Origin: a virus | Length of the DNA: 22,667 bases | Virus record (IMG/VR): IMGVR_UViG_3300038825_000013 | Coordinates: 1 to 22,667 of that record | Strand: one strand, 5' to 3' | Shown here: one piece after another, positions 1,522 to 22,667 of the stretch | How positions within the stretch are numbered: the first letter of the stretch is position 1 | How the letters are laid out: each line of letters begins with the position of its first letter | Notes under the pieces: generated by a model | What the model saw: only the letters and a program-made list of their open reading frames with translations | Told to the model about the DNA's origin: nothing | The model's database searches: none | Position numbers and translations under genes: made by a program

Positions 1522-3657
1522 ATGAAATACGATAAAAAAGATAAGAAAGCTAAAGGTACAAAAAAAGTAGATTACACAAAATTACAAAGCATTATCCGTT
1601 CTAAATTGGATGATGCCGAAGATTACATCAATCAAATAGGTAAGGAACGCGCAGAAAGCACAGAATATTACTTGGGTACTGAGCCTGATAATACCAGTGA
1701 TTTACAATCTGAGTTCATATCGACTGATGTTAGAGATAGCGTATTGTTTATGTTGCCATCAATCATGCGCACTTTCTTTGGCACTAAAAAAGTAGTGGAG
1801 TTTGTACCCAATAGCCAAGAAGATATTCCTGTTGCAGAGCAACAAACTGACTATATCAATTATATTGTCCAACAAAAAAACTCTGGTTTTAAAGTCTTGT
1901 ACGATGCGTTCAAAGATGCGCTCGTAAGAAAGTCAGGATTTGTTAAGGCTTTTTGGGATGACACCATGAGTTCCACAACGCACGAATACACAGACATTGA
2001 TCCGATGTCATATCAAGCGTTAATACTTGATCCAGATGTTGAAGTCGTGAAAGAGTCGGTAAAGATGGAATCTATGACCATGATAGACCCACAAACCAAC
2101 GAAGAAATTACACAAGAATCACCCGCAAGTTATGACCTAACAATTAGAAGGGTGAAAAGAAAGGATCAAGTCTGCATAGAAGCTGTACCGCCAGAAGAAG
2201 TTTTGATATCAAGAGATGCAAGAAGTTTAGAATCTTCTAGTTATGTTGCGCATCGAATGGTAAAGACTGTATCTGACTTAGTTGCTATGGGATACGATAA
2301 AGAAGAAATAGAGGAATATGCGGGGTCTGGATCGTCTTTTGATGCTAACACCTACACGGAAAGAGAAGCACGAAACCCACTCGGTGAAGATGTCTACCCT
2401 ACGTCTAGCACCGAACACTCAAAAGAAGTTTTATACATTGAACATTATTGTTTTTACGATTTAGACGATGATGGTATAGACGAGAGGATCAGAGTATGCA
2501 CAGTTGGTAATGGCGCAAATATTGTCAACTGCGAACCTTGGGATGACCTTCCTATTGTCATGTTCTGCCCCGATCCAGAACCTCACACCTCTATTGGTAG
2601 TTGCCCCGCAGATTACGTTAAACCAATCCAAGCAGCTAAATCACAGATTATGCGCGACACATTGGATTCATTGGGTCACTCAATATTCCCAAGAATGGGT
2701 GTGGTTGAAGGACAAGTAAACATTGATGATGTATTAAACACTGACATTGGACAACCGATTAGGATGCGTGCGCCAGGTATGGTGCAACCTTTCTCTGTAC
2801 CGTTTGTCGGTAAAGAAGCATTTCCTGTTCTGGGTTACTTAGACGAATCCAAAGAAAACAGAACTGGTGTATCTAAAGCAAGTGCTGGATTAAACGCTGA
2901 TGCATTGCAATCAACCACTAAATCCGCAGTTTCAGCGACTATGAGTGGTGCGCAAGGCAGAATCGAGTTAATTTGCCGTCATTTTGCAGAAGGTGGGATG
3001 CAACAATTATTCAAACTTGTTAATGGTTTAGTGATAAAACATCAGGATTCACAAGCAGTTTATCGCCTAAATAACGAATTTATCGCTGTTGATCCACGTT
3101 ATTGGGATGCAGATAAAGATATGGTGGTAAATGTCGCAATAAGCAAGTCTAGCGATGAAGAAAAGTCTGCATTGCTAGCGCAGTTAGCGGGCAAGCAAGA
3201 GCAAATACTGCAAACGATGGGAATGAATAACCCATTGGTTAGCTTGCAACAATATTCCAATACATTAACTAAAATTATTGAGATGGCTGGATTTAAAGAC
3301 GCGCAATCGTTTATTAATACGCAAGTACCGCCTATGCCACCACAACCAGAACAGCAAAAACCAGATGCAGCAGAGATGTTAGCGCAAGCTGAAATGCAAA
3401 AAGCGCAAGTGCAAGCGCAGAAAGCAATGATTGATTCTGAAACAGATAGAATGAAAATTATCATGGATGACGATAGAGATAGAGATAAAGCAGAAGCTAA
3501 CATTAGATTAAAAGCTGCTGAACTTAACGCTAAATATGGTGCGCAAATTAATGTGGCAGAAATAAATGCGTTAATGGAACGTGATAGAGAAACGCTTAGA
3601 CAGATCGCTAAGACACAATCACAAGGATTATTTACAGGTGGAAATCCAAACAACTAA
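1522..3657 (+). CDS. Portal protein, P22-like long form
   Basis: This 711-residue protein should form the dodecameric ring at one capsid vertex through which DNA enters and leaves, and on which the terminase docks. It follows the terminase by three bases, the standard position. The length and architecture fit the long portal class of P22-like podophages: a helical N-terminal clip and wing region, a central segment with the conserved theme RTGVSKASAGLNADAL around residue 455, and a long C-terminal coiled-coil rich in Gln, Ala, Lys and Asp (about residues 610-700). That tail resembles the helical barrel of P22 gp1. A proline/glutamine-rich hinge (PPMPPQPEQQ) separates core and barrel. No protease domain is fused. 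The family call is from memory of P22-type portals and I am confident of the role. Confidence 0.92.
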   Translation: MKYDKKDKKAKGTKKVDYTKLQSIIRSKLDDAEDYINQIGKERAESTEYYLGTEPDNTSDLQSEFISTDVRDSVLFMLPSIMRTFFGTKKVVEFVPNSQEDIPVAEQQTDYINYIVQQKNSGFKVLYDAFKDALVRKSGFVKAFWDDTMSSTTHEYTDIDPMSYQALILDPDVEVVKESVKMESMTMIDPQTNEEITQESPASYDLTIRRVKRKDQVCIEAVPPEEVLISRDARSLESSSYVAHRMVKTVSDLVAMGYDKEEIEEYAGSGSSFDANTYTEREARNPLGEDVYPTSSTEHSKEVLYIEHYCFYDLDDDGIDERIRVCTVGNGANIVNCEPWDDLPIVMFCPDPEPHTSIGSCPADYVKPIQAAKSQIMRDTLDSLGHSIFPRMGVVEGQVNIDDVLNTDIGQPIRMRAPGMVQPFSVPFVGKEAFPVLGYLDESKENRTGVSKASAGLNADALQSTTKSAVSATMSGAQGRIELICRHFAEGGMQQLFKLVNGLVIKHQDSQAVYRLNNEFIAVDPRYWDADKDMVVNVAISKSSDEEKSALLAQLAGKQEQILQTMGMNNPLVSLQQYSNTLTKIIEMAGFKDAQSFINTQVPPMPPQPEQQKPDAAEMLAQAEMQKAQVQAQKAMIDSETDRMKIIMDDDRDRDKAEANIRLKAAELNAKYGAQINVAEINALMERDRETLRQIAKTQSQGLFTGGNPNN

Positions 3658-7633: not shown

Positions 7634-8569
7634 ATGGCTAAAGTAACAAACGCCTTTGACACATATACTGCGACTGCTGACAGAGAATCATTGTCTGATA
7701 CTATCTACAATATCTCTCCAATGAGTACGCCTTTTATGAGTTCCATAGGCAAAACAAATGTAAAAAACGTCCAATTTGATTGGCAAACAGAAGCCCTACC
7801 TACTGCATCTGGTACAGGTCAGTTGGAAGGTTTCGAGCTATCAAGAGCAGCTTCTACTGCTACAGTTAGAGAAAGTAACGTATGTCAAATCTCAAGCAGA
7901 GATGCAACTGTAACTGGTACGCAAAATGCTTCCGATGCAGCGGGTAAGCGCACAGAAATGGCGCATCAACTAGCTATTATGGCTAAAGCTTTGAAGCGCG
8001 ATATGGAAACGGCCTTGTGTTCTAAGGTAGCTAAAAATGCTGGTAACGCGACTACTGTTCGTCAAACTGGTGGTTTTGAAACTTGGACAGAAACTAACGT
8101 ATCGCGTGGTTCTGGCGGGTCTGGTGCTGGAAACGGTGCTGCTCCTGTTGACGGTACGCAACGTGCGTTTACTGAAACTATCCTAAAAGCAGTACAACAA
8201 CTTTGCTTTGCAAACGGTGGTGAGCCTTCAATGTTGATCGTTGGCCCACACGTTAAAAGTGTTGTTTCTGGGTTTACTGGTCGTTCATCTGCAAGACAAA
8301 TGATTGATGCTAATACTGTAGAAGCGTCAGTTGCTATCTATGCTGGTGACTTTGGTGAATTGCAAGTAGTTCCTTCTAACTTTAGTAGATCAAGATCAGC
8401 GTTATTTGTTGACCCTGATTACGCTAAAGTTTCTTACTTGAGAGATTTCGAAACTATCGACATTTCCACTATTGGTGATGCAATGACAAAAATGATTGTC
8501 GTTGAATTTGGTTTAGAAGTTTCAAATGAGAAAGCGCACGGAATCGCTGCTGACTTATCAACATCGTAA
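7634..8569 (+). CDS. Major capsid protein, SU10/DUF5309-like HK97 fold
   Basis: This 311-residue protein is the main shell subunit. It follows the scaffold by 12 bases and matches, by motif memory, the SU10-type major capsid family: an N-terminal DTYTATADRESLSDTIYNIS, the SPMSTPFMSSIGK element near residue 30, WQTEALPTA, and RDATVTGTQNASDAAG. The later parts are MLIVGPHVKSVVSGFTGRSS, IYAGDFGELQVVPS and the C-terminal strand FGLEVSNEKAHGIAADL. There is no N-terminal delta domain to be cleaved, consistent with the separate scaffold gene. A terminator hairpin starts 11 bases after its stop, which would help make it the most abundant product of the upstream transcript. Confidence 0.92.
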   Translation: MAKVTNAFDTYTATADRESLSDTIYNISPMSTPFMSSIGKTNVKNVQFDWQTEALPTASGTGQLEGFELSRAASTATVRESNVCQISSRDATVTGTQNASDAAGKRTEMAHQLAIMAKALKRDMETALCSKVAKNAGNATTVRQTGGFETWTETNVSRGSGGSGAGNGAAPVDGTQRAFTETILKAVQQLCFANGGEPSMLIVGPHVKSVVSGFTGRSSARQMIDANTVEASVAIYAGDFGELQVVPSNFSRSRSALFVDPDYAKVSYLRDFETIDISTIGDAMTKMIVVEFGLEVSNEKAHGIAADLSTS

Positions 8570-8617: not shown

Positions 8618-8908
8618 ATGGCAAAAAGAACTTTAATAGACTCTAAATCAGGATTTATGAGTGAGTTTGCTACAGAAGATGAAAAGAACATTTATCACAG
8701 TTCTCAAAATGTTCAGCCTATTTTGGATAATGTAAAGAATTTATCTTACGGTACGCAAGGTAAAGAATTAAAGCACGTTGCAGAAGTACCTATGGTAATA
8801 TATCAAAAGGCAGTAAGAGAAGGTTGGGCTAAAGACAGAAAGCAATGGAAGAAATGGCTCAATGATCCAGATAATAAATTATTTAGAATATGGCAAGGTA
8901 GAGTATGA
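8618..8908 (+). CDS. Small hypothetical protein between capsid and adaptor
   Basis: This 96-residue protein begins MAKRTLIDSKSGFMSEFATE. I take ATG 8618 as the start. The in-frame ATG at 8591 lies in the loop and stem of the terminator hairpin and would add a hydrophobic MPLILIGII stretch not expected in this protein. The body is soluble and charged, with a tryptophan-rich C-terminal third (REGWAKDRKQWKKWLNDPDN and FRIWQGRV). Its stop overlaps the next start by four bases (ATGA). I have seen similar short proteins after capsid genes in related phages but know no function. A head-completion role is a guess from position. Confidence 0.7.
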   Translation: MAKRTLIDSKSGFMSEFATEDEKNIYHSSQNVQPILDNVKNLSYGTQGKELKHVAEVPMVIYQKAVREGWAKDRKQWKKWLNDPDNKLFRIWQGRV

Positions 8909-9552
8909 CTTATGAAGAATTAAAAACTCAAATAGCAAGTTATTTGAATAGAAGTGATTTAACATCACAAATTGATATATTTATTGACACTACCGAAGCA
9001 GAATTAAACAGAAAGGTCAGAGATAAAGATATGATTAAAAGAGCAACTGCCACAGCAGATGCTCAATACTTAACTCTACCTGACGATTGGTTGGAAGTAA
9101 TTAATGTAGAAATTACATCAAATGATTTTTCTCCATTAATGCAACAATCAATAGAATCATTAGATGTATTTAGAAGGGCAAATGACAATACTTCTGGACA
9201 GCCAAAGTATTTTGCTATTGTAGATGGCACATTAGAACTTGCCCCTACCCCTGACACATCATATACATTACAATTAACTTATTATGGTAAAATCACCGCG
9301 TTAAGCGACTCGAACACCAGTAATTTTGTTTCAACAAACCACCCAGATGTTTATTTATATGGTGCGTTGAAGCAAGCCTCTATTTATCTTATGGAAGATG
9401 ATAGAGTTCAGATGTTTACTGCGCAATTTGAATTAGCTTTAGAAGAAATGCGTATGCAACAAGAAAGAGCTGCGTTTGGAAAAGGTTCTTTAATACCAAG
9501 AAAAAGAACTTATGGTCAACGCAAGAAAACAACATATTTTATGAGAAATTAG
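8905..9552 (+). CDS. Head-tail adaptor protein, SU10 adaptor-like
   Basis: This 215-residue protein fits the adaptor family that forms the ring under the portal in SU10-like podophages. Family features visible are the helical start (MTYEELKTQIASYLNRSDLT), IDTTEAELNRKVRDKDM, the strand pair YLTLPDDWLEVINVEI, a beta region centred on LELAPTPDTSYTLQLTYYGK, and the C-terminal helices VYLYGALKQASIYLMEDDRV and FELALEEMRMQQERAAFGKG. It starts in a four-base overlap with the previous gene. The placement after the capsid gene and before tail genes agrees with this role. The identification is from motif memory and I consider it likely. Confidence 0.82.
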   Translation: MTYEELKTQIASYLNRSDLTSQIDIFIDTTEAELNRKVRDKDMIKRATATADAQYLTLPDDWLEVINVEITSNDFSPLMQQSIESLDVFRRANDNTSGQPKYFAIVDGTLELAPTPDTSYTLQLTYYGKITALSDSNTSNFVSTNHPDVYLYGALKQASIYLMEDDRVQMFTAQFELALEEMRMQQERAAFGKGSLIPRKRTYGQRKKTTYFMRN

Positions 9553-9565
9553 GAGTAAATAGAGA

Positions 9566-9961
9566 ATGGCTGGATTTACAGATTATTTAGAAGATAAAGT
9601 ATTGGATCATGTATTTGGTGGTAGTGCTTACACAGCACCAGGAACTTTATACGTTGGTTTATTTACAGCAGCACCTTCTGATACTGGTGGTGGTACTGAA
9701 TGTTCTGGTGGTTCATACGCAAGAAAAAGTATGGCTGCTATGACTGTATCAGGCACTTCACCAACCACAGCAACCAATGGATCAGCAGTAGAGTTTGTTA
9801 CTGCTACTGGCTCTTGGGGAACAGTAACCCATGTAGGTATTTTTGATGCCTCATCAAGCGGTAACTTAATGGCTTGGGCAGCATTATCTGCTTCCAAAGC
9901 AGTAGCAAGTGGTGATGTATTTAGATTCGATGCTGGTGACTTAGACGTTACATTGGCGTAA
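9566..9961 (+). CDS. Small tail-fibre-type structural protein
   Basis: This 131-residue protein belongs to a common single-domain phage family, often annotated only as tail fibre or structural protein. Visible family marks are FTDYLEDKVLDHVFGG at the N-terminus, TLYVGLFTAAPSDTGGGTE, GGSYARKSM, SWGTVTHVGIFDA and the C-terminal strand FRFDAGDLDVTLA. The fold is expected to be beta-rich. An AGGAG ribosome site precedes the ATG. It sits between the adaptor and two repeat-rich fibre-type proteins, which supports a place in the tail or its appendages. The precise position in the virion cannot be read from the sequence. Confidence 0.78.
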   Translation: MAGFTDYLEDKVLDHVFGGSAYTAPGTLYVGLFTAAPSDTGGGTECSGGSYARKSMAAMTVSGTSPTTATNGSAVEFVTATGSWGTVTHVGIFDASSSGNLMAWAALSASKAVASGDVFRFDAGDLDVTLA

Positions 9962-9964
9962 TCA

Positions 9965-10735
9965 ATGGCCTCAGTAGGCTATGGTTACGGTGGTTATGGG
10001 AAGTCACACTATGGTCAACCCATATTTCAATTTGGCGAAGCGACTCTAGCGCAAACGTCAGGATTATCTGCATCTGCGTCTATGACGTTTGCAGTATCCG
10101 CAACATCAGCACAAACATCAGGTGTAACGGCTTCTGGAACTTTACTCAAGTTAGGTGCAAGCACGATTGCACAAACATCTGCTGTAACCGCAACAGCCGA
10201 AGTAGTAAAACTGGGTTCTGCTACTATGGCACAAACCTCTGGGTTTGCTGCTACTGGCAGACAAATAGATCGTGGTGAAGCTACAATTGCTCAAACTTCT
10301 GGATTATCAGCTACCGCAGAAGTAGTCAAACTTGGTACAGCAACCATAGCACAAACGTCTGCGGTGAGCGCAACAGCAGTTATTGTTCTGAGTGCATCAG
10401 CAACTAGCGCACAAACTAGCGCAGTAAGTGCATCAGGAACATTAGTTAAATTAGGTGTAGCAACCTCGGCAGAAACATCAGGATTTAGTGCTACCGCAGA
10501 GATGGTAGTATCGGGTGATGCTACTATGGCGCAGACAAGTGGAGTTACTGCGCTTGGTAGTATAAAATATTCTGGTGTAGCGACTATCGCACAAACATCT
10601 AGTCTTTCCGCCATTGGTGGCTTAAAATGGGAAGATGATACTGTAACGACAACCACATATACGGATCAAACAGTAACGACAACAACTTGGACAGACCAAA
10701 CTGATCCGTCAACGTCTTGGTCAGAAGCAGCTTAA
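9965..10735 (+). CDS. Tandem-repeat virion protein (ten AQTSG-type repeats)
   Basis: This 256-residue protein starts with a Gly/Tyr-rich head (VGYGYGGYGKSHYG) and continues with ten imperfect repeats of about 20 residues, each of the type G-x-A-T-x-A-Q-T-S-G/A-x-x-A-x-A followed by a hydrophobic strand. After the repeats comes a Thr/Trp/Asp tail (TTTTYTDQTVTTTTWTDQTD, then TSWSEAA), a style of C-terminus seen in phage structural proteins. There is no signal peptide. The alternation suggests a beta-solenoid or fibrous rod. It lies between two fibre-type genes and is probably part of the tail appendages. I do not recognise the exact family. Confidence 0.75.
   Translation: MASVGYGYGGYGKSHYGQPIFQFGEATLAQTSGLSASASMTFAVSATSAQTSGVTASGTLLKLGASTIAQTSAVTATAEVVKLGSATMAQTSGFAATGRQIDRGEATIAQTSGLSATAEVVKLGTATIAQTSAVSATAVIVLSASATSAQTSAVSASGTLVKLGVATSAETSGFSATAEMVVSGDATMAQTSGVTALGSIKYSGVATIAQTSSLSAIGGLKWEDDTVTTTTYTDQTVTTTTWTDQTDPSTSWSEAA
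10034..10630 (+). repeat. Ten in-frame tandem repeats of about 60 bp
   Basis: Ten degenerate units of about 60 bases encode the AQTSG-type protein repeats. Several units share longer near-identical stretches (for example those coding TAEVVKLG and ATIAQTSG), suggesting unit duplication within this gene. The repeat number could vary between related phages. Confidence 0.85.
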
Positions 10736-10750
10736 CATAGGATAGGAAAC

Positions 10751-12613
10751 ATGGCAGATACAACAACTACGAATTTAAGTTTAACAAAACCCGAAGTAGG
10801 GGCGAGTACAGATACTTGGGGTACGAAAATAAATACTGATTTAGATACTTTGGATGCAATATTTGGTGCATCAGGTACAGCAGTCAATATGGGAGCAGTT
10901 ACATTTACCGAAATCAAAAGTGCAACCGCTGGAACATCAAACTTCATAGCTGGTGTAAACGCGGGTAACTCAATCGCATCAGGCGGTAACTACAATGTTT
11001 GCGTAGGTGATGAAGCGGGTACTGCGATTACGACTGGTGATAATAATGTTGCTATTGGTTATCAGGCTTTAGATGCAGAAGATACTAGAAGCGACTCTAT
11101 TGCAATAGGCTATCGTGCCTTAACTGCACAAAACGGAGATACTGCAAATACCTACAACATAGCTATAGGTACTGATGCTGGATTAGCTATTACTACAGGA
11201 AATAGAAATGTATTTTTAGGTGCGCTTGCAGGAGATGCAACAACAACTGCTGATGGAAATACAGCTATTGGACACAATGCTCTTTCAGCTAATACGACAG
11301 CAGAAATAAACACGGCAGTCGGTTTTCAAGCGATGTTATCTAATACAACGGGTACAAGTAACGTGGCGATGGGTTCTGGAGCATTAGACGCAAACACCAC
11401 AGCTTCTAACAACACAGCAATCGGTGCAGAGGCTTTAGGAGCAAACATCACAGGTGCTGACAACACGGCAGTCGGAAAAACTGCTTTAAATTCAAACACC
11501 ACAGGCGCAGACAACACCGCACTTGGTGGTAGCGCAATGTACGCTAATACAACTGGTGGTCAAAATGTTGCAATCGGTGTTGGTTCACTAGATGCTAATA
11601 CGACAGCTTCAAACAATACCGCAGTTGGTAATTTAGCTTTATCAGCAAACACTACTGGAACTAGAAACACGGCAGTTGGTATGAGTACAGGAGCAGCCAT
11701 AACAACAGGTTCTTACAATGTATTGATGGGTGCATATACAGGCGATGCTATTACTACTGGTGAGCAAAACACAGCAGTTGGTGATGCTGCATTAACATCT
11801 TGTATTGCTGGTACAGATAATGTTGCTATAGGCGACCAAACTTTAAAAGTTAGTACAGCTTCTAACAATACAGCAGTTGGTGCAAGTGCCTTAATAGCAA
11901 ACACTACAGGAGGCTCAAGCGTAGCAGTTGGTTTTAAAGCATTAGAAGTACAAACTACAGGTTATTCAAATACAGCACTTGGTGAGTTTGCTGGTGGTAG
12001 TATGACTACAGGATCAAGTAACCTTTTTGTTGGTATACAATCAGGTTATTGGAATGGTAATGCCACAACTACAGGTCAAGCTAATACTATAATTGGTGCT
12101 TATAGCTATACAACATCGACAGGTACTAATGATGCTGTAGGTTTAGGATATAATGTTGCTGCAGAGGGTGGCTACACAACTCTAGGTGTTGCTAATAATG
12201 ACATCAGAGCAGCACACGGAAACATCACTTGGGCTACTGTATCAGACGAAAGAGTTAAGAAAGATATTGAAGATGCTACTGTAGGTTTAGCCTTTATCAA
12301 CGATCTTAGACCAGTAACTTTTAATTATAAAAACAAAGGTGATCTGCCTGAAAACTTTAGAGGTTATGAAGAAGGCTCTACAGAAGTTTATAAAAACTCT
12401 AAATCTCAACACGGTTTTATAGCTCAAGAAGTTAAAGCAGCTATTGATAAACACAGCGATATTAAAGATGGTTTTGGTATGTGGGATGATGATGATCCTT
12501 CTGGACAACAAAGAGTTGGTGAAACAGCAGTAATACCAGTATTAGTAAAAGCAGTACAAGAACTCTCAGCACAAGTTCAAGAATTAAAAGCACAAATAAA
12601 CGAGGAAAAATAA
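10751..12613 (+). CDS. Long tail fibre with NTAVG repeats and C-terminal S74 chaperone
   Basis: This 620-residue protein is a likely receptor-binding or side fibre. The N-terminus ([20 protein letters not shown]) is a widespread phage fibre attachment element. From about residue 82 to 460 there are about 22 units of near 17 residues with consensus N-T-A-V/I-G-x-x-A-L-x-A-N-T-T-G-x-x, similar to the left-handed beta-roll repeats of trimeric adhesin heads. The last part is a peptidase S74 intramolecular chaperone: SDERVKKDI places the predicted catalytic Ser at 498 and Lys at 503, followed by [17 protein letters not shown] and a C-terminal helix ([20 protein letters not shown]). Such domains trimerise the fibre and then cut themselves off, here just before S498. 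A TAGGA ribosome site precedes the ATG. Confidence 0.93.
10994..12130 (+). repeat. About 22 in-frame repeats of 51 bp in the fibre gene
   Basis: Degenerate 51-base units encode the 17-residue N-T-A-V-G repeats. Most units are exactly 17 codons; a few are 16 or 20-21. Neighbouring units such as those at [10 protein letters not shown] and NTTGADNTA are more alike than distant ones, which suggests local duplication. Confidence 0.85.
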
Positions 12614-13039: not shown

Positions 13040-14554
13040 ATGGCTTTATTGCCAATTACGCCAGTTCCAGGAATAGTCACAAATGGCACACCTTACTCAA
13101 AGAAGGGTCGTTGGACTGATGGCGATTTAGTACGTTTCCAAAACGGAAACTTAAAACCTATTGGTGGCTGGGAAAAATTAAGATCAACAGCACTAACAGG
13201 CACACCCACCGCACTCTACGCATACAGCGATAACTTTGGTAACTCAGTATTAGCCGTTGGCACTCGACAAAAAGTCTATGTATTAACTCGTAATATTTGG
13301 TACGACATAACACCAACTGGATTCGTAACGGATGCCTCAAATGATCCACTAGGCTATGGTGCATACCAATACGGACAAGAAGATTATGGAGATGCCAGAT
13401 CACAGTCTGGATTACTGTTTGATACAACTTCATTCTCATTCGATAACTGGGGTGAGTTTTTAATATTTTGCTCTGCATCCGATGGCAAGATATATCAATG
13501 GCGACCGCATGGCGGTGGCACAAATACACCTGACTCTGCGGGAACAGCAGTAACCAATGCACCTACTGGAAATTTAGGAGTAGTAGTAACAAATGAAAGA
13601 CATATTTTAGCGATTGGTGCGGGTGGTGATCCAAGAAAGGTATCGTGGTGTTCAAGAGAAGATCAAACTAACTGGACAGCGAAAGCAACCAATACTGCGG
13701 GTGACTTGCAAGTGCCGACAGGTGGTAGATTAATTGGTGCTAAAAAGTTTCAAACAGATGTTATTTTATTTACTGATACTGGTATTGCTAGGTTGTTTTA
13801 TAATGGCAATCCATTTGTATATGGTGTTGCAGATGCGGGTACTAACTGTAAAGCAATATCAACTCGATCTATAGCAAGTTCTGGTAACGCATTATCTTGG
13901 GTGGGAGAGAACGCGATATTTGTTTACGATGGAGTGGTGCGAGAAGTGCCATGTGAGGTACACGATTATATCTTTAGCGATCTAAATTACAGTTATCGTA
14001 AAACCATAGCGGGTGGTCATAACTCTAATTACAATGAATTTATTTGGTTCTTCCCATCTACTGACAGTCAAAAACCCGATAAATATATTATTTGGAATTA
14101 CATGGATAATGTGTGGGCGGTAGGTGCTATGGACAGAGGTTGTTGGGTGGATCAAGGTGTATTTGATTATCCGATTGCGTGTGATAATAGTGGTTTTGTA
14201 TATCAACACGAAAGCACCACATTAAATAACTCACCGAACTTAGGAACATCTGTACCGTTTTGTCAGTCAGGGCCAATAGAAATATCTAACGGTGATCGTT
14301 ATGTGCAATGCAATCAAATCATACCCGATTCAGAAGCAAGCACATTACCTGGTGTGACATTAAGTTTTACTGGTAAGTTTACACCGTTAGGCCCAGAAAC
14401 AGATTTTGGTTCATTTACATTTGATTCGAGTGATGGTTACACAGATGCCAGATTCAGTGCTAGGCAAGTGCAGATGAAAGTAACAGGCGATACTACACAA
14501 GATTTTGAGTTAGGTAATGTTCGTTTGGATGTAGTCACTAGAGGCAGAAGATAA
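13040..14554 (+). CDS. Nozzle / packaged-DNA stabilisation-type tail protein
   Basis: This 504-residue beta-rich protein resembles the family of P22 gp10-type and SU10 nozzle-type proteins that close the tail end and keep the DNA in the head. The recognisable N-terminus is PVPGIVTNGTPYSKKGRWTD, DLVRFQNGNLKPIGGWEKL. After it come repeated strand-turn units with aromatic residues (LVFTDTGIAR-like, NYMDNVWAVGAMDRGCW), as expected of a beta-propeller. The C-terminal region contains FSARQVQMKVTGDTTQDFEL. There is no signal peptide. Its stop overlaps the next start (TAATG). The exact role is inferred from family memory and from context in a short-tailed virion gene set. Confidence 0.8.
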   Translation: MALLPITPVPGIVTNGTPYSKKGRWTDGDLVRFQNGNLKPIGGWEKLRSTALTGTPTALYAYSDNFGNSVLAVGTRQKVYVLTRNIWYDITPTGFVTDASNDPLGYGAYQYGQEDYGDARSQSGLLFDTTSFSFDNWGEFLIFCSASDGKIYQWRPHGGGTNTPDSAGTAVTNAPTGNLGVVVTNERHILAIGAGGDPRKVSWCSREDQTNWTAKATNTAGDLQVPTGGRLIGAKKFQTDVILFTDTGIARLFYNGNPFVYGVADAGTNCKAISTRSIASSGNALSWVGENAIFVYDGVVREVPCEVHDYIFSDLNYSYRKTIAGGHNSNYNEFIWFFPSTDSQKPDKYIIWNYMDNVWAVGAMDRGCWVDQGVFDYPIACDNSGFVYQHESTTLNNSPNLGTSVPFCQSGPIEISNGDRYVQCNQIIPDSEASTLPGVTLSFTGKFTPLGPETDFGSFTFDSSDGYTDARFSARQVQMKVTGDTTQDFELGNVRLDVVTRGRR

Positions 14555-20835: not shown

Positions 20836-21256
20836 TTTATTGGTATTATTTGCAAGTAATTTAGTTGCAGATGAAATATCATTCAGATTTAAAAGCCCTA
20901 GCTTTTCTGGTGTTAACAGTTCTTCACATTACTTAACAATCGAGAATCAAGAGAACACCAGAAGGCAGAGCATTAAAGATGAAATACAGGCATACCAAGA
21001 CGAACTCGCAAGAGAAGCGGATAACACAACACTGGCAAGATTTATACGCAACTTGGAATCTCGTATTTATGCACAGTTAAGCCGTCAAATGGTAGAACAA
21101 CTGTTTGGCGAAACACCACAGAAAGAAGGTAAACTTGAGCTAGAAGGTAATACGATTGAATATGTTGTTGAAGATGAAACAATTACTCTTATCATCACAG
21201 ATGAAACAGGCGGTACGACTTCTATTACTGTTCCTATTGGTAGCTTTACTTTCTAG
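20813..21256 (+). CDS. csgF: Curli assembly/transport component CsgF
   Basis: CsgF is a secreted factor that binds the CsgG pore in the outer membrane, with its N-terminus forming a second constriction in the channel, and helps anchor the curli nucleator at the cell surface. This 147-residue protein starts at a GTG (MKISAKISLLVLFASNLVA) with an AAAGG ribosome site six bases upstream. It has a type I signal peptide with cleavage after A19. The mature N-terminus (EISFRFKSPSFSG) has the CsgF signature F-x-F-x-N/S-P-x-F-x-G, compared with MTFQFRNPNFGG in E. coli. The C-terminus (YVVEDETITLIITDETGGTT, then SITVPIGSF) matches the CsgF beta strands. Length is close to E. coli CsgF (138). The 3' end overlaps csgG by 56 bases. 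Confidence 0.92.
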   Translation: MKISAKISLLVLFASNLVADEISFRFKSPSFSGVNSSSHYLTIENQENTRRQSIKDEIQAYQDELAREADNTTLARFIRNLESRIYAQLSRQMVEQLFGETPQKEGKLELEGNTIEYVVEDETITLIITDETGGTTSITVPIGSFTF

Positions 21257-22022
21257 TTGCGCACCAAGATATAGCTCTCTATTAGAAGAAGGCGGTCTGC
21301 CTTATATAGTAATAGAAAAAGCATCAATACTAGAGCTACAAAACGAAGAACTTCTAAATCTAAAGCCAGCAAAAAGAAAACCAGTAATAGCTGTATATCC
21401 TAATAGCTTTAAAGATATGACAGGACAGAGAAGGAGTAACTCGCAATTCGCCTTATTCTCAACCGCTATTACTCAAGCACCAGAAGCACTTTTAATTAGA
21501 GCATTAAAACACGCATCGAATGGTGAGTTCTTTCAAGTAGCAGAACGAGTTGGATTAGACAGTTTAACCAAAGAAAGGCAATTAATACGTTCAACAAGAG
21601 AAACATTTGAAGAGGAGAGTACTGTCAAACCTCTTTTGTTGGCTGGGTTATTGGTACAGGGTGCTGTCCTTTCCATAGATTCTAACATTAGAAGCGGTGG
21701 AATGGGTGCGCGTTATTTGGGGATAGGAAGCTCTAAAGAGTATCGGGAAGATTTAATTACTATTTCATTACGCTTGGTTTCTGTTTCCACAGGGGAAGTT
21801 TTAATTGAAGTATTGATAAATAAAAGTATTATCTCAGTAGGGCTGTCGCAAGACTTGTTTCGTTTTATATCTAATGGAACTGAGTTAGTTGAAATAGAAG
21901 GTGGCGCAGCAGAGAATGAAAGTACATCAATCGCATTGCAACAATCAATCGAACAAGGAGTATTACAAATAATTAAGATAGGAATTAGCAAGGGGTATTG
22001 GGAATATGAAGAAATTAATTAG
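21201..22022 (+). CDS. csgG: Curli secretion pore lipoprotein CsgG
   Basis: CsgG forms a nonameric outer-membrane channel that exports curli subunits. From ATG 21201 the protein has 273 residues (277 in E. coli). It begins with a lipoprotein signal (RLLLLFLLVALLSSC), lipid-attachment Cys 20. Family landmarks follow: IAVYPNSFKDMTGQ, the constriction-loop region with the conserved FSTA at residues 86-89, then ERVGLDSLTKERQLIRSTRE. The first barrel hairpin has the diagnostic SNIRSGGMGARYLGIG at 161-176, and the second LRLVSVSTGEVL. In E. coli the constriction is Tyr51, Asn55 and Phe56 (mature numbering). Here the Phe is kept, while the Asn position appears to be Leu and no Tyr is visible. An in-frame ATG at 21156 would add 15 residues; I prefer 21201 as it gives a normal lipoprotein signal. 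Confidence 0.94.
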   Translation: MKQAVRLLLLFLLVALLSSCAPRYSSLLEEGGLPYIVIEKASILELQNEELLNLKPAKRKPVIAVYPNSFKDMTGQRRSNSQFALFSTAITQAPEALLIRALKHASNGEFFQVAERVGLDSLTKERQLIRSTRETFEEESTVKPLLLAGLLVQGAVLSIDSNIRSGGMGARYLGIGSSKEYREDLITISLRLVSVSTGEVLIEVLINKSIISVGLSQDLFRFISNGTELVEIEGGAAENESTSIALQQSIEQGVLQIIKIGISKGYWEYEEIN

Positions 22023-22667
22023 TTTATTTTTATTGTTATCGTGTAGCGCAATAGCTGACGATAACGAAATCTATGTAGATCAAGTTGGTGCAACAGCCAA
22101 CATTGACTTAGAGCAACTAGGTTCTGGAAACATTATAGGTGGCTTGAACTCTGCACACGGCTCTATGACTGCGTTTGATCTTGATGGTACTACAATGACA
22201 TTAGATGTGAACCAGATAGGAAACAATAATAAAATGCTTGGTGATATAAACGCAGATTCATTCACTGGCATATTTGATTTTGATGGTGATACCAACTTAT
22301 ACACTATTCAAGTTGATCCTGGTAATGCCAATAGTGCAGATTCATCAAACGTGAATGTGGATGTGGACGGGTCAACCAACACCTTTACATTAGACTTAGC
22401 TACCAACAGTTTAGCGAGTGGTGCAGACATTGATACGATAGTGCAAGGTGCAAGCAACACAGTAAACATTGACCTTGATGTTGATAGCGCAACCAACTAT
22501 ATTGATTTAGATGGAGATAGTAATACTGTAAATTATGATGGAGATGGTTATGCGGGTGCTTATTTCAAGTTGGAACACGATGGTAACTCAAGGTCTTTTG
22601 ACATTGACCAACAATCTACGTTGGATAACGATTGGTTACAAGTTACTTCTTCTGGCAATAATGGTAG
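22006..22667 (+). CDS. Curlin-like amyloid subunit, partial (runs off the window)
   Basis: The frame starts at ATG 22006, overlapping the csgG stop by 17 bases, and is open to the window end (220 codons visible). It begins with a type I signal peptide (MKKLISLFLLLSCSAIA, cut after A17). The mature part is built of strand-turn units rich in Asn, Asp, Gln, Gly and Ser, about one residue in six being Asp. The first units (VDQVGATANIDLEQLGSGN and VNQIGNNNKM) fit the curlin Q-x-G-x-x-N type repeat of CsgA and CsgB. Later units drift to forms such as DLDGDSNTVNYDGDG. Context next to csgF and csgG makes it the likely cargo. It is already longer than E. coli CsgA (151) and ends beyond the window. Confidence 0.85.
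   Translation, partial: MKKLISLFLLLSCSAIADDNEIYVDQVGATANIDLEQLGSGNIIGGLNSAHGSMTAFDLDGTTMTLDVNQIGNNNKMLGDINADSFTGIFDFDGDTNLYTIQVDPGNANSADSSNVNVDVDGSTNTFTLDLATNSLASGADIDTIVQGASNTVNIDLDVDSATNYIDLDGDSNTVNYDGDGYAGAYFKLEHDGNSRSFDIDQQSTLDNDWLQVTSSGNNG

Follow-up and report, generated by a model that had tools for sequence, protein, structure and literature searches.

Knowledge of how marine phages with short tails attach exchangeable host-binding fibers to a conserved tail comes from few laboratory phages, and the tail module described here raises the question of what a repetitive protein, P0001, does beside such a fiber. The window analyzed is the whole stretch of 22,667 nucleotides formed by positions 1 to 22,667 of virus record IMGVR_UViG_3300038825_000013. 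Pfam and PHROG matches show that its left part holds the structural gene module of a short-tailed marine phage (podophage) resembling SU10 and GP4, which includes a scaffold protein (phrog_3927) and the following features:

1522–3657, forward strand: SU10-type portal protein (PF23899, E = 4.6e-193)
7634–8569, forward strand: SU10-type major capsid protein (PF17236, E = 1.3e-86)
8905–9552, forward strand: SU10-type head-tail adaptor (PF24175, E = 1.7e-37)
9566–9961, forward strand: homolog of GP4 "fiber I" gp80, 131 aa (PF23140, E = 1.3e-45; PDB 8jou_a, E = 2.7e-12)
9965–10735, forward strand: putative connector P0001, a 256-aa CDS with an ATG start (69 distinct complete relatives among the IMG/VR matches listed)
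10751–12613, forward strand: tail fiber/spike of 620 aa with a C-terminal Peptidase_S74 chaperone domain (PF13884, E = 3.7e-13; phrog_4636, tail spike, E = 1.2e-76)
10751–10876, forward strand: N-terminal 42 aa of that fiber, proposed docking partner (co-occurrence seen from the fiber side)
13040–14554, forward strand: probable nozzle/stabilization protein (phrog_3287, E = 4.1e-71)

P0001 follows the gp80 homolog and precedes the S74 fiber. The body of that fiber carries NTAVGxxAL/NTTG repeats of ~17 residues, seen in the DNA as a 51-nt array at 11390–11521; these are presumably reminiscent of YadA-type head repeats.

P0001 consists of three parts:

9965–10036, forward strand: Tyr/Gly-rich head (residues 1–24, MASVGYGYGGYGKSHYGQPIFQFG), putative tail-side anchor
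10037–10636, forward strand: ten 20-residue units (residues 25–224), proposed beta-solenoid spacer from repeat analysis and a low-confidence model
10628–10732, forward strand: aromatic ladder W222, Y232, W242, and W252, proposed fiber dock, with W222 lying within the last unit

A first-pass annotation of this DNA had described ten 20-residue units, and the units are real. All ten are exactly 20 residues long with zero indels, and units 1–9 share a mean pairwise identity of 52%, compared with 12% (sd 1.1%, maximum 17%) in 2,000 composition-preserving shuffles. Unit positions T3, A5, T7, S8, and A12 are identical in all ten units and Q6 in nine, and autocorrelation of the body is strongest at lags of 40 and 20. 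The array had been placed at 10034–10630; its measured limits are 10037–10636. A second repeat in the same open reading frame had been overlooked, namely, the C-terminal Trp/Tyr ladder, whose rungs are spaced 10 residues apart and whose DNA forms a 30-nt array at 10643–10701. W222, W242, and W252 are invariant in alignment A3 of relatives. In the head, M1, A2, G5, Y6, G7, and Y11 are invariant among 39 aligned sequences, and head type varies from one phage group to another.

Database searches with P0001 itself returned little. No family match was obtained in Pfam or NCBIfam, and the only PHROG match, phrog_31951, was not significant (E = 0.12). When P0001 and the A1 profile were searched against PDB sequences, only chance-like matches appeared (antibody chains, a phosphatase), and queries with the ladder-bearing proteins of phiM5, MW202462, and MW202481 and with the BcepMigl protein from this locus gave either no match or chance-like ones. 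A scan of 84,980 genomes from bacteria and archaea found no relatives at its sensitivity; it yielded 55 pattern matches, none confirmed. A limited literature search found no published description of the family. While tblastn of P0001 against 50,697 phage records gave no match, the diverged relative L036 matched five records, one at E = 7e-6 and the rest between 0.01 and 1, which made comparison with annotated phages possible.

Structure prediction was similarly modest. AlphaFold2 modeling, with 39 sequences for P0001 and 28 for a 180-aa relative, reached pLDDT values of 51.5 and 36.2, respectively, and both low-confidence models contain three short strands per 20 residues. Foldseek comparison of the model with the PDB gave nothing below E = 0.9, with mostly generic beta-helices near E = 1 or worse, and the best BFVD match, an uncharacterized phage protein (E = 8e-5, TM 0.2), was given no weight. 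Because the model is poor, fold comparison is uninformative. The fibrous beta-solenoid rod of the first-pass annotation thus keeps its beta-rich repeats in a tail module and its three modeled strands per unit, but, given the low pLDDT and the generic Foldseek matches, the predicted solenoid fold is a lead and no more.

Relatives of P0001 were recovered from 114 IMG/VR loci among the matches listed (some contigs being present twice), of which 107 were complete and gave 69 distinct proteins of 256, 257, 261, 262, or 276 aa; those aligned share 55–98% identity with P0001 of the window. The first Trp rung stands at residue 222 in 67 of them and at 223 in the remaining two, so all 69 close relatives listed have ten units, and their length differences fall in the ladder or the final residues. 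Unit similarity had been taken to suggest recent duplications, a view the DNA contradicts: the units of P0001 are on average 55% alike in DNA (maximum 72%), and Tandem Repeats Finder reported no 60-nt array at the ten-unit body. Across phages, equivalent units are more alike than different units (mean of 68% versus 47% over 67 relatives; 53% versus 39% for the most diverged relatives), which indicates that the array predates the close clade. The constant number of ten in all 69 close relatives listed likewise means that the duplications are old, and recent duplication was rejected on the combined grounds of low unit DNA identity and cross-phage unit similarity. These 69 distinct close relatives also speak against a fast-varying length, since the first-pass annotation had itself named an invariant repeat number among relatives as a refuting outcome.

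Length does change farther out. Two wider sets were collected, each of 78 new loci from the best 80 matches: one anchored on the gp80 homolog, which favors close relatives, and one anchored on a 180-aa relative, with 54 distinct proteins. Separately fetched locus sets overlap (same contigs with other flanks), so distinct proteins are counted wherever counts matter; the one exception is the fiber-side figure of 68 of 72 given below, which counts loci. Among the matches listed for the wider family, the first rung lies mostly at residue 121, 139–142, 162, 182, 222, 242, or 442, that is, in 20-residue steps; a minority, mostly with other heads, have it at 159, 161, 164–166, 178, 181, 194, 199, 203, or 204. 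Profiles of the ten-unit and 180-aa families match unambiguously (hhalign E = 3.9e-42), the latter family being shorter by ~80 residues, or four units. The earlier idea that repeat number sets a variable length therefore applies to the wider family, where changes are mostly of whole units, but not to the close relatives listed. The P0001 family is real, old, and modular.

The ladder is the other constant of this family. Among 1,717 distinct open reading frames from the collected loci that encode 100 aa or more, 96 contain at least three Trp at 9–11-residue spacing, versus 9 of 1,717 after one shuffle each. In all 96, the Trp run lies inside the last 80 residues; one of them, on the reverse strand of L117, looks like chance. 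A ladder of at least two rungs ends 131 of 139 distinct proteins among the matches listed (at least three rungs in 121), and the eight without one resemble fibers directly after gp80. Rung numbers are strikingly regular. Within the 131 distinct proteins listed, 100 have four rungs, 19 have six, and 10 have two, the exceptions being MW202879 with three and MW202481 with seven by a loose count and six by a strict one. The 54 distinct proteins listed for the second set comprise 52 with four rungs, one with two, and one with six, and the IMG/VR matches listed from the fiber side (see below) comprise 34 with four, 22 with six, and 10 with two; a single five-rung ladder in that set is truncated by the contig end. 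Looser counting chains Phe and Tyr of the body into as many as nine rungs, and a stricter count was used as a check. Complete ladders thus almost always have 2, 4, or 6 rungs, spaced 9–11 and mostly 10 residues apart.

Parsimony on a tree of the gp80 homolog with 147 tips gave 24 rung-number changes, of which 23 were even, a rough total, given the 131-aa marker, that recombination may have inflated. In L266 and L269, the difference from the 180-aa relatives is exactly 20 residues and two rungs. Because nearly all rung-number changes are even, this pattern suggests that two rungs, equivalent to one 20-residue coil, may form the structural unit, if a single 30-nt gain arises as easily as two.

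A conserved terminal ladder invites the question of what it contacts, and gene order points to the neighboring fiber. The partner fiber has an N-terminal consensus of MADTxTTNLxLTKPE..DTWGxKLN, hereafter TTNL-type. Among the matches listed, a TTNL-type fiber is the next gene for 106 of 115 distinct ladder proteins (the 131 less 6 belonging to the collection of annotated phages and 10 lacking a readable next gene) and for all 52 with a readable next gene among the 54 distinct proteins of the second set. The nine exceptions comprise one other fiber and eight nozzle-like genes, seven after ladders of two rungs and one after a ladder of four; where the next gene of a two-rung protein is readable, it is nozzle-like rather than a fiber in seven of nine cases.

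Since this pairing could be mere linkage, we also approached it from the fiber side, searching the 50,697 phage records with the first 65 aa of the window's fiber. Eight records, representing seven phages, were retrieved from the annotated collection. In six of the seven (phiM5, MW202879, MW202496, MW202711, DB2 [gp11], and OspP_OH [p46]), a ladder protein lies directly upstream of the fiber, and the six proteins share the ladder, although neither their heads nor their repeats are alike. The seventh, CV-1-33, has the fiber N-terminus and no ladder protein, its upstream gene being adaptor-like. In IMG/VR, an upstream ladder protein was present at 68 of 72 loci with a readable open reading frame (from the best 80 loci), a count in which the ladder frame was preferred where several ended near the fiber start and whose contigs overlap in part with the gp80-anchored set, the listing favoring close relatives. 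Among the 71 distinct upstream proteins listed, 57 have at least three rungs, 10 have two, and 4 have none, the last being a fiber-like frame in L342 and a small protein in each of L343, L346, and L348. The strongest autocorrelation lag is 20 in 64 of the 65 listed fiber-side ladder proteins longer than 120 aa.

In the gp80-anchored set, among the matches listed, a fiber-like gene that follows gp80 without a ladder protein has another N-terminus at 11 of 11 loci; a fiber N-terminus of the MALVLADRVKET type is one example of a mismatch with the TTNL type. Ladder–fiber co-occurrence may nonetheless be partly inherited linkage. At L175 (position 5987), gp80 is followed directly by another fiber type, and a 154-aa Trp-ladder protein lies further down, followed by an unrelated gene. 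The Zobellviridae phages MEP402 (L121, 3256–4071) and CRP-4 (L120, 2447–3208) encode after gp80 a protein with a different aromatic C-terminus, of YVKxxGxWK type in MEP402, and a fiber-like gene with another N-terminus comes next, directly or after one more gene. This aromatic C-terminus is possibly a second plug type.

These observations bear on two ways in which P0001 could be read as something other than a connector. The first, close to the first-pass annotation, makes P0001 itself a second host-binding tail fiber or rod of variable length whose Trp-rich end binds surface sugars. Its beta-rich repeats do sit inside a tail module, its array length does vary in the wider family, and Trp is common in sugar-binding sites. 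Receptor tips, however, normally change fast, whereas this Trp ladder is conserved and tracks one fiber N-terminus across unlike bodies; the ten units common to all 69 distinct complete close relatives listed also sit poorly with variable reach. Pfam, PHROG, and NCBIfam searches found no receptor domain in P0001, which differs from a classical trimeric tail fiber in having no C-terminal receptor-binding or chaperone domain, the S74 domain being encoded by the next gene. We consider a second fiber distinctly unlikely and a connector the better reading because the conserved ladder co-occurs with the N-terminus of the neighboring fiber. The second view takes P0001 for a decoration or minor head/neck protein that is paired with the fiber by inherited gene order only. 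Module gene order is indeed conserved throughout, and PHROG labels for parts of the neighborhood read "head and packaging." Against it, the TTNL-type pairing persists where heads and repeats are unlike, other fiber types directly follow gp80 where no ladder protein is present, and the ladder proteins of MW202481 and Venkman lie far from gp80, adjoining another fiber type. This reading is improbable.

We favor, with moderate confidence, P0001 as a two-ended tail-to-fiber connector of a short-tailed phage. The Tyr/Gly-rich head would anchor on the tail in the collar/adaptor region, beside the gp80 homolog; it is put on the tail side because the ladder tracks the fiber. The ten units would make up a stiff, beta-solenoid-like spacer with a reach set by their number, and the Trp ladder would grip the fiber N-terminus in the mature virion. 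This grip would resemble the three-Trp dock loop of SU10. In the available part of the SU10 report, a loop of nozzle protein gp17 carrying W839, W847, and W857 holds the trimeric short fiber, with each Trp touching Ile24 in the N-terminal region of one fiber subunit (PMC9509320). We located these residues in KM044272, where they are spaced by 8 and 10 residues, similar to the 9–11 of the ladder proteins, and the portal, major capsid protein, and adaptor families also match those of SU10, a podophage of the same class. There are also differences: three Trp there against 2, 4, or 6 rungs here, with rare exceptions; a loop within the beta-propeller of the nozzle protein there against the tail of a separate 256-aa protein here; and a fiber N-terminus of another type. 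One Trp per fiber subunit as a general rule was rejected on the even rung numbers, and since these misfit one Trp per trimer subunit, the docking geometry should differ from that of SU10. The probable nozzle protein of the window matches the N-terminus of SU10 gp17 weakly (E = 0.003 for a single comparison), and inspection of its Trp positions revealed no evident SU10-like three-Trp loop; on the simplest reading, docking is therefore the task of the stand-alone ladder protein, which would set the distance as well.

Other phages offer partial parallels. In the Ralstonia podophage GP4, as described in the available part of the LSH1 paper, 8JOU chain g is a dimeric fibril linking an adhesin to the nozzle collar (PMC13243795), and a homolog of GP4 gp80 directly precedes P0001. 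Up to E = 10, a profile of the P0001 family matched none of the 8JOU chains, a phmmer search of PDB sequences gave no 8JOU match for P0001, and PF23148 (the GP4 gp77 fiber-tail adaptor) was absent from the 18 proteins of the window that were compared with Pfam. By analogy, the GP4 fibril appears close to P0001 in its putative working.

A second comparison concerns the proteins that occupy this locus in Lessievirus, Ittyvirus, and Namazuvirus (BcepMigl gp57, Itty13, BcepIL02 gp56, JC1 gp54, DC1 gp54, and POI1126 gp16). They too directly follow a gp80 homolog, and the best period is 20 residues in five of the six (22, then 20, in JC1); they differ from P0001 in that profile comparison detects no similarity (hhalign E = 0.73) and their alignment shows no Trp ladder.

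Closer to P0001 are the annotated ladder proteins of Sinorhizobium phage phiM5 (phiM5_18), MW202462, MW202879, MW202481, MW202496, MW202711, DB2 (gp11), Venkman (gp51), C72C1, and OspP_OH (p46). They share a repeat body with a C-terminal Trp ladder, whereas their head and repeat sequences are unlike those of P0001; across nine distant members, the sole invariant residues are M1, G4, and two Trp. A profile of nine of these proteins (A7, without DB2) matches that of the 180-aa relatives (A5) with hhalign E = 1.3e-16, a value that repeats can inflate, and the 180-aa relatives in turn match the P0001 family, completing a chain to the phiM5_18-type proteins. Their public labels are "hypothetical protein" or wrong-looking: "putative E3 ubiquitin-protein ligase HERC6," "serine-rich adhesin" (twice), and "ribonuclease E." The ladder proteins with wrong-looking names are the following:

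L119, 7932–8648
L118, 7983–8759
L116, 4389–5219
L285, 2968–4494

P0001 itself combines what we use to define a Trp-ladder connector: a 20-residue-period body, a C-terminal Trp/Tyr ladder of ~10-residue spacing, and an adjoining TTNL-type fiber.

Whether such proteins stay in the virion separates a connector from an assembly factor, a chaperone or scaffold for fiber attachment that would be gone from the finished virion. Strong pairing with one fiber type would suit such a factor as well, as would the proteome records. In the phiM5 particle notes, phiM5_18 is not flagged as detected, while its neighbors 17 and 19 are; in the available part of the JC1 report, the virion proteins named are gp53, gp55, and gp56, with gp54 absent from that list (PMC9144972). 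Yet phiM5_18 yields only two tryptic peptides of 7–30 residues, versus 5 and 11 for its neighbors, and the aligned JC1 gp54 lacks a Trp ladder, so these absences weigh little, but not nothing. BcepIL02 gp56, the Lessievirus protein at the P0001 locus that shares the 20-residue period, is annotated as virion-associated, and BcepMigl gp57 and Itty13 match phrog_19041, which is labeled "virion structural protein." A modular rod with mostly whole-unit length changes also suits a spacer. An assembly factor is accordingly unlikely, although it deserves some weight.

A last alternative stems from the right end of the window, where two features recall curli export:

21156–22022, forward strand: CsgG homolog, curli export pore (PF03783, E = 2.2e-45; NF011731, E = 5.4e-39, below its cut-off)
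22006–22665, forward strand: protein directly after CsgG, past the window end, with a signal-peptide-like start

The latter protein is Asn/Asp/Gly-rich with curlin-like QxGxxN stretches by inspection, and it gave no curlin family match. With a CsgG gene within the window, and since beta repeats of ~20 residues recall curlin, P0001 could be a secreted curli-like subunit exported by this homolog. P0001, however, lies in the tail operon, shows no signal peptide or hydrophobic leader at its N-terminus by inspection, and has no curlin family match, and no CsgG is annotated in the related-phage stretches inspected. This possibility is scarcely credible.

P0001 is thus probably a fiber connector with a Trp-ladder dock. 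More broadly, and tentatively, at somewhat less than an even chance, the family may represent undescribed, widespread stand-alone fiber adaptors in which a Trp-ladder plug for one fiber N-terminus is joined to interchangeable spacers of 20 residues per coil, such that reach would change in whole coils and fibers could be swapped, with a functional unit of two rungs unlike that of SU10. The rung pair rule is a directly testable structural prediction. If the reading is true, one short ladder motif would predict the fiber-tail junction in many unannotated phages, connector and fiber could be paired from sequence alone, misleading database labels would be replaced, and phages of this kind would possess a natural stepwise length scale for fiber reach.
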